Shown: positions 4,467 to 7,108 of the stretch, in pieces | How the letters are laid out: each line of letters begins with the position of its first letter | Numbering within the stretch: the first letter of the stretch is position 1 | DNA from: Corallococcus macrosporus DSM 14697 | GTDB lineage: Bacteria > Myxococcota > Myxococcia > Myxococcales > Myxococcaceae | DNA length: 64,000 nucleotides | Assembly (NCBI RefSeq): GCF_002305895.1 | Contig: NZ_CP022203.1 | Location: 8,218,001-8,282,000, forward strand | Direction of reading: 5' to 3' | Made by a program: the position numbers and the translations under genes | The notes under the pieces: generated by a model | The model's input: the letters and a program-made list of their open reading frames with translations, nothing else | Told to the model about the DNA's origin: nothing | Database searches by the model: none

Positions 4467-4577
4467 GGCACGGGCAGGCATGGCAGGCAGGCGGGCGGCG
4501 CGAATTGCCGCGGCCTCCGCGGGTTCTCATTCTTGAGACGAAGGCAGCCGACCCACCGCGCTTTCCGAGGAGAGGCC

Positions 4578-4850
4578 ATGCGATTCAAGAAGCTGGGGTC
4601 AGACGACGTGGGCGAGTCCACCTCGCGGCGTCACATGAATCCGGACACCGGTGAGGATGAAATCAACATCTCCGACCAGGACCTGGCGGCGACTCCGCCC
4701 CTGGAGGAGGAGCCGGACTTCCGCGACATCCTCCCGGACGAGATTCATGAGTTCCGCCGTGGTGATGAGGAAGAGGAGCCGCTGGAGTTGACGGCCCAGC
4801 CGGGGTACCGCATCCGGCCCATCGACTTCGACAAGCTGCCGCAGGGATAG
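4578..4850 (+). CDS. Small acidic hypothetical protein
   Basis: A 90-residue acidic protein with no recognisable domain, no signal peptide and no membrane segment. It opens MRFKKLGSDDVGESTSRR, has Asp/Glu clusters (for example GDEEEEPLEL) and ends in RPIDFDKLPQG. GAGGAGAGG lies just upstream of ATG 4578, which supports this start over an in-frame codon 45 bases earlier. Codon use matches its neighbours, so I take it as a real gene of unknown function. It converges on the SUKH/H1-like gene across a hairpin. Confidence 0.65.
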   Translation: MRFKKLGSDDVGESTSRRHMNPDTGEDEINISDQDLAATPPLEEEPDFRDILPDEIHEFRRGDEEEEPLELTAQPGYRIRPIDFDKLPQG

Positions 4851-4911: not shown

Positions 4912-6627
4912 CTACCGGCCGCGAGCGCCCTTCTTCGCCGCGGCCTTCTTGGCGGAGGTCTTCTTCGCCACGGACTTCTTGGCCGCGCTCTTCTTGGTGG
5001 GAGCCTGCTTCGTGGCGGTCTTCTTCACAGGAGACTTCTTGGCCGCGCCCTTCCGGGCGGGAGCCTGCTTCGCGGCGCCTTTCTGGGGTGCGGACTTCTT
5101 CGCAGCGGCCGTCTTGGCAGTGGGCTTCCGCGCAGTGGCCTGCTTCGCCGCGCCCTTTTGAGCAGCGGGTTTCGCAGCGCCTCGCTTGATCGCAGCCTTC
5201 GCGGCGCCCTTCCGAGCAGCGGGCTTCGTCGCAGCCTTCGCGGCGCCCTTCCGAGCAGCGGGCTTCGTCGCAGCCTTCGCGGCGCCCTTCCGAGCAGCGG
5301 GCTTCGTCGCAGCCTTCGCGGCGCCCTTCTGAGCAGCGGGCTTCGTCGCAGCCTTCGCGGCGCCTTGCCTGGTGGCGGCCGTCGCTGCAGCGGCCTTCGC
5401 GGCGCCCTTCCGAGCAGGAGTCGCCTTGGTATCCGCCCGCTGGGCTGTCGCGGTCTTCTCCACGGCCTTCGAGGTGGACGCCGTCGTCGCGGCGGTCTTC
5501 GCCGTGCTTCTCGAAGGAGCGGGCTTCTTCGCGGCGGGCGTCTCCGAGACAGCCTCCTCGGCAGGGAGCGCCTGCGCAGGGGTCACCTCAACCGCAGCGG
5601 CGGCCTTCTTCACGGCGGTCTTCTTGGGCGCGGCCTCCTGGGCCGAAGCAGCCGCGATGAGGGAAGCCGGGGAGGAAGCCGCCTCCTGCACGGCCTTCCT
5701 CAAGACAGCAGAGTCCTCAGCGGCCTTCTTCACGCGCTGGACCTTGCCCGGCTTGCCTCGCGGGAACAGCACGCCAGCGCCGCCGATGGCGAGCGGGATC
5801 TGCTGAGCCTGTTGCCCCCGTCCCTTGCCCGACCGGGCCGTGCGAGCACTCGCCCCATCGCCCTCCTGGTACCGCGAGGACGAGGATGAATCGTCGTACT
5901 CGTAAGCGAGCTCGCGAATCGCCGCCTCTTCTTCGACGGGCGCCTCTTCAGCCGCCACTTCGTCGGCCAGCTCCGCCTCCTCGAGCTGCTCCGCCTCGTC
6001 GGCCTGCGCCGCGGCTTCGGGCGCCTCCTCGCCGGCCTCCGCCGCTTCTTCGAGCGCCTCCTCTTCCTCCTCCCCGTCGGCCTGGACGCCGGACAGCGCT
6101 CCCTGGAGGACGGCATTCATCGCGCGGGCGAAGGTGCGCTCCCCGAAGCTCTCCACCTCCGCGGGCGGGACGAGCACGTCGAGCATGTCCTTCAGCGAGC
6201 GATACAGCCGCATCTGCCGCTTCTCGCCCTCCCAGGTGCCGTAGACCCAGTCGTCGCCTTCGAGCGCCTCGACCCAGCCCGGCAACGGCCCGCCACCGTC
6301 CCCCTGCTCCACCATCGCGGACTTGCGCGAGGCGAAGAGGTGCCGGTGCTGCCCCTTCAAGCCAATGCGCCACAGCCCCGCCGCGGGCAGCCCTTCCAGC
6401 TTGAGGCGGGTCTTCTCCAGGACGCTCGGGGCCCCCTCCGCCCCGTGCAGGCGGAAGAGCTGGACCTCACCGTTGAGCTCGCCCCCGTCGAACGCCTGAT
6501 ACAGGGCGCTGAGCTCGTCGGGAAATGGAACGCCGCACTCCGTTTCGGCCCGGCGAATCTCATCGGGAGAGACGCCAGTTGACGATGCCCTGACCGACTT
6601 GCGAAGTGCCTCCAACCACTCGTGCAT
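4912..6627 (-). CDS. SUKH (SMI1/KNR4-like) protein with acidic linker and histone-H1-like tail
   Basis: The 571-residue protein has three parts. Residues 1-170 look like a SUKH/SMI1-KNR4 domain (PDEIRRAETECGVPFPDELS, then FDGGELNGEVQLFRL, then a conserved WVYGTW). SUKH domains are common immunity or adaptor modules. Residues about 185-250 are strongly acidic, rich in Glu and Ala. From about residue 330 to the end the chain is Lys/Ala/Pro-rich with KKAAAKK- and ARKGAAKAATKP-type repeats, like eukaryotic histone H1 tails, and probably binds nucleic acid. The start ATG at 6627 fits the domain boundary. Part of the tail is encoded by 39-bp tandem repeats. I know of no described protein with exactly this architecture. 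Confidence 0.8.
   Translation of the reverse strand: MHEWLEALRKSVRASSTGVSPDEIRRAETECGVPFPDELSALYQAFDGGELNGEVQLFRLHGAEGAPSVLEKTRLKLEGLPAAGLWRIGLKGQHRHLFASRKSAMVEQGDGGGPLPGWVEALEGDDWVYGTWEGEKRQMRLYRSLKDMLDVLVPPAEVESFGERTFARAMNAVLQGALSGVQADGEEEEEALEEAAEAGEEAPEAAAQADEAEQLEEAELADEVAAEEAPVEEEAAIRELAYEYDDSSSSSRYQEGDGASARTARSGKGRGQQAQQIPLAIGGAGVLFPRGKPGKVQRVKKAAEDSAVLRKAVQEAASSPASLIAAASAQEAAPKKTAVKKAAAAVEVTPAQALPAEEAVSETPAAKKPAPSRSTAKTAATTASTSKAVEKTATAQRADTKATPARKGAAKAAAATAATRQGAAKAATKPAAQKGAAKAATKPAARKGAAKAATKPAARKGAAKAATKPAARKGAAKAAIKRGAAKPAAQKGAAKQATARKPTAKTAAAKKSAPQKGAAKQAPARKGAAKKSPVKKTATKQAPTKKSAAKKSVAKKTSAKKAAAKKGARGR
5192..5364 (-). repeat. 39-bp tandem repeats encoding the H1-like tail
   Basis: Four consecutive 39-bp units (5192-5230, 5231-5269, 5270-5308, 5309-5347) plus a 17-bp partial unit differ by at most a base or two. 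Each encodes the 13-residue unit containing ARKGAAKAATKP. The length is a multiple of three, so unit gain or loss by slippage keeps the frame. Confidence 0.9.
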
Positions 6628-7108
6628 GACCCCTCCACGACATCCAGTCGCACAACCTTACGGCGGCTGTGCGCTCCTGCGCAGTGCGAGCTTTGGCTTT
6701 TGATGACACCGCGCCAGAGCTGATCCAAACCGCTCCGGCTGACAGGGCGGTCGTCCCCTCTCGCAGGCATACCTTGAAAACCCGTGGCCCCCGTCCAGCC
6801 CATCCCCTCCTCCCGAGAAACAGGGCTCGCGCGCCCGAGCGACGCCCGCGCCCCCCTCCGCGAGGACCCGCGCGACAAGGCCATCCAGGCCCCGCGCTGA
6901 TCCACCCTCCGGCGGGTGAAACGCCCTGAACCCGGCAACGGCCCGCCCCGCTGGCCGCCCAGGTGCCAGCCGGAGCGGTCGACGGCGACGGACACTCGCG
7001 CCCACGAGCCATTCTCCAGACCGTGCTTAGCCTCCGCCAGTTCGTCCCGGACGCACCGCGCGCACAGGCCGCGCGCCGTCCCGGGCTCGGGGTCCGTGGG
7101 GAGGATGC
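6628..7108. other. Divergent intergenic region, no firm gene
   Basis: This 481-base gap separates the SUKH/H1-like gene (minus) from the CotH-like gene (plus) and must hold both promoters; I found no convincing -35/-10 pair. One minus-strand reading between about 7080 and 6900 looks protein-like (CARCVRDELAEAKHGLENGS, then a Trp/Gly-rich stretch) but has no ribosome binding site and overlaps the CotH-like start if extended to an ATG at 7140. It may be a gene remnant or chance. Confidence 0.4.

Follow-up and report, generated by a model that had tools for sequence, protein, structure and literature searches.

A conserved gene of one myxobacterial family encodes a SUKH-like head, an acidic block and a histone H1-like tail

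In the myxobacterium Corallococcus macrosporus DSM 14697, a gene at positions 4912–6627 of the window (the whole stretch of 64,000 nucleotides that was analysed) encodes a protein of three consecutive parts, a conserved head of ~175 residues with similarity to SUKH domains in its first half, an acidic block, and a Lys/Ala/Pro-rich tail resembling histone H1. The gene is conserved with this layout as a single copy in a syntenic position, and its head is strongly constrained. We have moderate confidence that the protein is a nucleoid-anchored adaptor, in which the head would hold a conserved partner, the tail would bind DNA, and the acidic block would tune that binding.

Gene and protein layout

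The reading frame is uninterrupted and starts with ATG. The host genome of the window is 8.97 Mb in a single contig, and its closest named relatives are Myxococcus species. The features of the locus, in window coordinates, are as follows.

4912–6627, minus strand: whole gene, 571 aa, with orthologues in 64 genomes
6655–6686, minus strand: conserved upstream element CACTGCGCAG-N16-TAAGGT, 32 bp, from the upstream alignment
6630–6636, minus strand: ribosome-binding site GGAGGGG, assigned by sequence, 2 bases 5' of the ATG and conserved in the upstream alignment
6118–6627, minus strand: N-terminal SUKH-like domain, residues 1–170; the conserved block reaches about residue 180 (window position 6088)
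6460–6576, minus strand: match to PF09346 (SMI1_KNR4), residues 18–56, 27.7–27.9 bits, the sole matching stretch
5890–6078, minus strand: acidic block, residues 184–246, ending in RELAYEYDD
4915–5631, minus strand: basic Lys/Ala/Pro histone-H1/HC2-like tail, about residues 333–571, from profile match and composition
5190–5417, minus strand: in-frame 39-bp (13-codon) repeat array inside the tail, from Tandem Repeats Finder
4533–4850, plus strand: small acidic protein of ~90–105 aa, encoded convergently, no Pfam match, adjoining the gene in most orthologous loci

A SUKH-like domain joined through an acidic linker to an H1-like tail had been described in the sequence-only reading, and this layout is real: the head, the negative stretch and the basic tail follow in that order in all 40 parsed close orthologues, which lie on distinct contigs. 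The linker corresponds to residues 184–246, with a net charge of −20 in the best 40-residue window, and the RELAYEYDD at its end recurs in several genera. The final 100 residues of the protein consist of 28% Lys, 6% Arg and 33% Ala, with 0% Asp/Glu. The in-frame repeats that had been noticed in the tail were recovered by Tandem Repeats Finder with a period of 39, 5.8 copies and 89% matches.

The upstream element is recognisable in most lineages aligned, contains the 8-bp palindrome CTGCGCAG, and is probably a promoter or operator. Under the searched pattern, no second exact copy of the element was present in the genome, and a sigma-70 promoter scan found nothing.

Similarity of the head to SUKH proteins

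SUKH members act as versatile immunity proteins whose genes often lie in toxin loci or form tandem arrays (PMC3482391). When the isolated head was compared with the SMI1_KNR4 profile (PF09346, cut-off 25.4 bits), it scored 27.9 bits with residues 1–170 and 27.7 bits with residues 1–180, and the full-length protein scored 25.0 bits, slightly below the cut-off. The match spans profile positions 1–46 of 125, and it is found at E ≤ 0.1 in 13 of 14 homologues, down to 36% identity. For the remaining ~120 residues, the C-terminal half of the head, no match was found, though they are highly conserved within the family. Since the match is limited to residues 18–56, the head can be regarded as SUKH-like in its first half, and the assignment holds in this narrow form. 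The earlier attribution of residues 1–170 to SUKH thus stands in that the similarity exceeds the Pfam cut-off, but it applies to a core motif and not to the whole domain. The protein shares this motif with SUKH-1 (SMI1/KNR4) proteins and differs from them in the C-terminal half of its head, which has no detectable SUKH similarity, in its basic tail, and in its lack of a toxin context.

The genome encodes four further SUKH-1 proteins, which group apart and can be aligned with the head only across the first ~55 residues. A profile–profile comparison with these four aligned 53 columns at a probability of 41%, and when one of the four was aligned with the head, no convincing common C-terminal half was seen. 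Sequence searches of the PDB with the head returned chance matches alone (E 0.36 or worse), and the AlphaFold model of the head (18 orthologues) had a mean pLDDT of 44. PF02559 (CarD_CdnL_TRCF) was absent from the protein by Pfam search, and the matches to this family in the genome lie elsewhere.

Evolution of the three parts

The orthologues range from 363 to 654 aa, and the frame is intact in every parsed close orthologue. The dN/dS values in close pairs are 0–0.16 for the head, 0.14–0.52 for the acidic region and 0.24–0.72 for the tail. Purifying selection on the head is strong, and the tail evolves faster and with many indels. Orthologues with 98.7–99.1% identical head DNA nevertheless encode proteins of 485, 494, 538 and 590 aa, and the variable tail length anticipated from the repeats is therefore seen between close species, each represented by one genome. 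In two of these close pairs, all gaps are multiples of three; in other pairs some gaps of the nucleotide alignment are out of frame with the ORFs open, as expected when repeats are aligned. Since tail length shifts fast under a near-fixed head, close relatives provide a natural series for the role of tail length.

The negative stretch is weak in two of the close orthologues (L023, net −9 over 40 residues; L007, −11) and missing from all three distant homologues (L063, L064 and L065), which indicates that the basic design can do without the acidic block. The distant homologues have basic tails, which amount to 14 aa in L063, a long Arg/Lys tail in L064, and a long Lys tail running off the contig in L065. 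Because basic tails occur in these proteins without an acidic block, the tail is probably ancestral and the acidic block was probably added later. Between the acidic block and the tail, a PAVIAAERRIKSLK-like motif is present in two copies in L022, L023 and L075, and the Archangium orthologues have a single copy, PVVAAAERRVVQLR.

Composition and putative ligand of the tail

The histone H1-like character proposed for the tail was partly supported by comparison with HC2 (PF07382, cut-off 40 bits), against which the tail scored 36.5 bits by hmmscan, below the cut-off, and the tail plus its in-frame neighbours scored 42.2 bits in a six-frame search. HC2/HctB of Chlamydia, with similar proteins in Bordetella and relatives, likewise has a Lys-rich, length-variable repeat tail; the entire Chlamydia protein is 165–237 aa, and the available portion of the source mentions neither a SUKH-like head nor an acidic block (PMC2848022).

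In the same genome, K/A tails are also carried by unrelated domains, and proteins with such tails were counted via the HC2 profile. In L078 (G000:C1:3684011), a short Lys/Ala-rich N-terminal tail is joined to a small folded domain, which is perhaps DUF1801-like. Another protein of the genome, L076 (G000:C1:2694138), has an N-terminal H1-like Lys-rich stretch and two apparent EF-hand calcium-binding loops (DRDRTGTIDRAE and DTDRTGKISWNE), and is possibly a calcium-responsive nucleic-acid-binding protein.

Nucleic acids of any sort can be bound by Lys/Ala-rich tails, and RNA, ribosomes or polyphosphate could equally be the ligand of the tail studied here. It is conceivable, at a low probability, that the tail has polyphosphate as its ligand or serves as a tether for storage granules, so that the protein would space granules like AlgP and PhaF, with its head on the granule or on a granule protein. 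These two Pseudomonas proteins, as described in the available portion of the source, likewise combine an N-terminal domain with an H1-like K/A/P repeat tail and function in granule positioning, PhaF by nucleoid tethering; AlgP is located at polyphosphate granules and keeps them spaced, and its 154-aa KPAA-repeat tail is required (PMC9239181). However, our head has no Pfam match to any granule-associated family, and no polyphosphate or PHA gene was found among the neighbours examined. The head of AlgP is helical and that of PhaF granule-binding, and the same portion of the source mentions a SUKH-like domain for neither (PMC9239181).

An RNA- or ribosome-binding protein is also an unlikely reading, in which the tail would serve to chaperone RNA or to anchor the protein to ribosomes, with a translation or RNA-decay factor recruited by the head. 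The present data fit DNA and RNA alike, but by sequence the tail comes closest to the chromosome-associated HC2, and CarD, which offers the best parallel within this genome, binds DNA.

We give still less credence to the possibility that the tail is neutral low-complexity sequence generated by replication slippage, with the head alone being important. The rapid turnover of the repeats, the tail dN/dS of up to 0.7 and the mere 14 basic residues of L063 would agree with such a tail, but the composition would not. Summed over 30 orthologues, the C-terminal 120 residues include 1037 Lys and 155 Arg (1192 of 3600 residues), 13 Glu and 2 Asp (15 residues), and zero Phe, Trp, Tyr or Cys, these counts being non-independent observations from proteins of common ancestry. 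Lys constitutes 22–35% of the last 150 residues despite a genome of ~70% GC. Since Glu is rare even though Lys (AAG) and Glu (GAG) codons are one transition apart, selection for positive charge is indicated. A wholly neutral tail was rejected because the tails of the 30 orthologues are nearly free of acidic and aromatic residues and because every parsed close orthologue has an intact frame. The constraint on the tail falls on its charge composition, not on its exact sequence or length.

Distribution and genomic neighbourhood

The gene was found in 64 of the 145 genomes of its order, with one copy each, and all of them belong to one family and represent 11 genera. Class- and phylum-level searches found no genomes with the gene beyond that family, and the other searched families of the phylum were negative. 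No match was obtained in three genomes of a genus that is otherwise positive, which is likely due to assembly gaps since each of these assemblies has ~900–1500 contigs. A Myxococcus-like locus with a 93% identical head and the same gene order is present in a record titled 'Comamonas sp. KCTC 72670' (L004), which is probably mislabelled or contaminated.

The usual gene order is atpD, atpG, response regulator, DUF218, small acidic protein, the SUKH-like gene and thioredoxin, with small variations. CotH and an ankyrin protein are also encoded at the locus, and in some lineages no response regulator or CotH gene was seen there. In genome G042 (L094, G042:C19), the locus has the response-regulator, DUF218, small-protein and thioredoxin genes and lacks only the SUKH-like gene, with <200 bp and no visible relic between the small-protein and thioredoxin genes. 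This arrangement represents either a natural loss of the gene or its ancestral absence. In five other gene-less genomes, the region beside atpG is without those neighbours too, and in G086 the contig stops beside atpG, so the place of the gene is outside the reach of that assembly.

Among immunity superfamilies, SUKH is the most versatile (PMC3482391), and the sequence-only reading mentioned immunity among the roles of the family. That the protein serves as an immunity protein of a polymorphic toxin system, with an incidental tail, is very improbable and was rejected, since the gene occupies one syntenic place beside the ATP synthase genes as a single copy in nearly every genome having it, no toxin gene was present among the neighbours examined, the head is highly constrained and not diversifying, and the tail is found in every complete close orthologue. 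The single copy, the synteny, the constrained head and the compositionally constrained tail argue against toxin immunity and for an adaptor anchored to the nucleoid or another polyanion.

Proposed function and known parallels

As a nucleoid-anchored adaptor, the protein would bind one conserved partner protein through its folded SUKH-like head. The tail, presumably disordered and H1-like, would make sequence-independent contacts with DNA or another polyanion and thereby keep the partner at the nucleoid. The acidic block, for which the sequence-only reading suggested a possible fold-back onto the tail, may compete with DNA for the tail and tune the binding by autoinhibition. A DNA-tethered adaptor fits the strict conservation of the head together with a presumably disordered basic tail kept in composition.

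This arrangement resembles CarD, which is encoded in the same genome (L083) with a folded head, an acidic run and a basic tail with four RGRP motifs. CarD of Myxococcus is likewise restricted to myxobacteria, and its head, acidic block and basic disordered repeat tail occur in the same order. The CarD head is a protein-interaction hub that binds RNA polymerase and CarG, and the tail binds DNA (PMC8156234, PMC4374960); the available portion of one source also reports that the tail can be exchanged for histone H1 or for the disordered C-terminal region of H1 (PMC8156234). On the other hand, the CarD head belongs to a different family (PF02559), and its HMGA-like tail has RGRP AT-hooks in place of the K/A/P repeats. 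A further difference is that the partners of CarD are known, namely CarG and RNA polymerase.

Taken singly, SUKH domains, H1-like tails and head–acidic–basic layouts are already known. In the open-licence literature searched, we found no study of this protein, nor any gene conserved in a myxobacterial family that combines SUKH, acidic and H1-like parts. We tentatively consider a further reading, which is possible but rather doubtful, that the protein is a lineage-specific chromatin-type regulator with a repurposed SUKH head and an acidic/H1-like, tunable DNA tether, independent of CarD. If this is true, the length of the tether would be evolvable, and the protein would be a parallel to CarD restricted to one myxobacterial family. 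If the nucleoid-anchored adaptor is correct, a nucleoid-bound protein would have as its head a domain that is chiefly associated with toxin immunity, and myxobacteria would have, beside CarD, a second and independent case of the eukaryote-like combination of a folded head, an acidic block and an H1- or HMGA-like tail.
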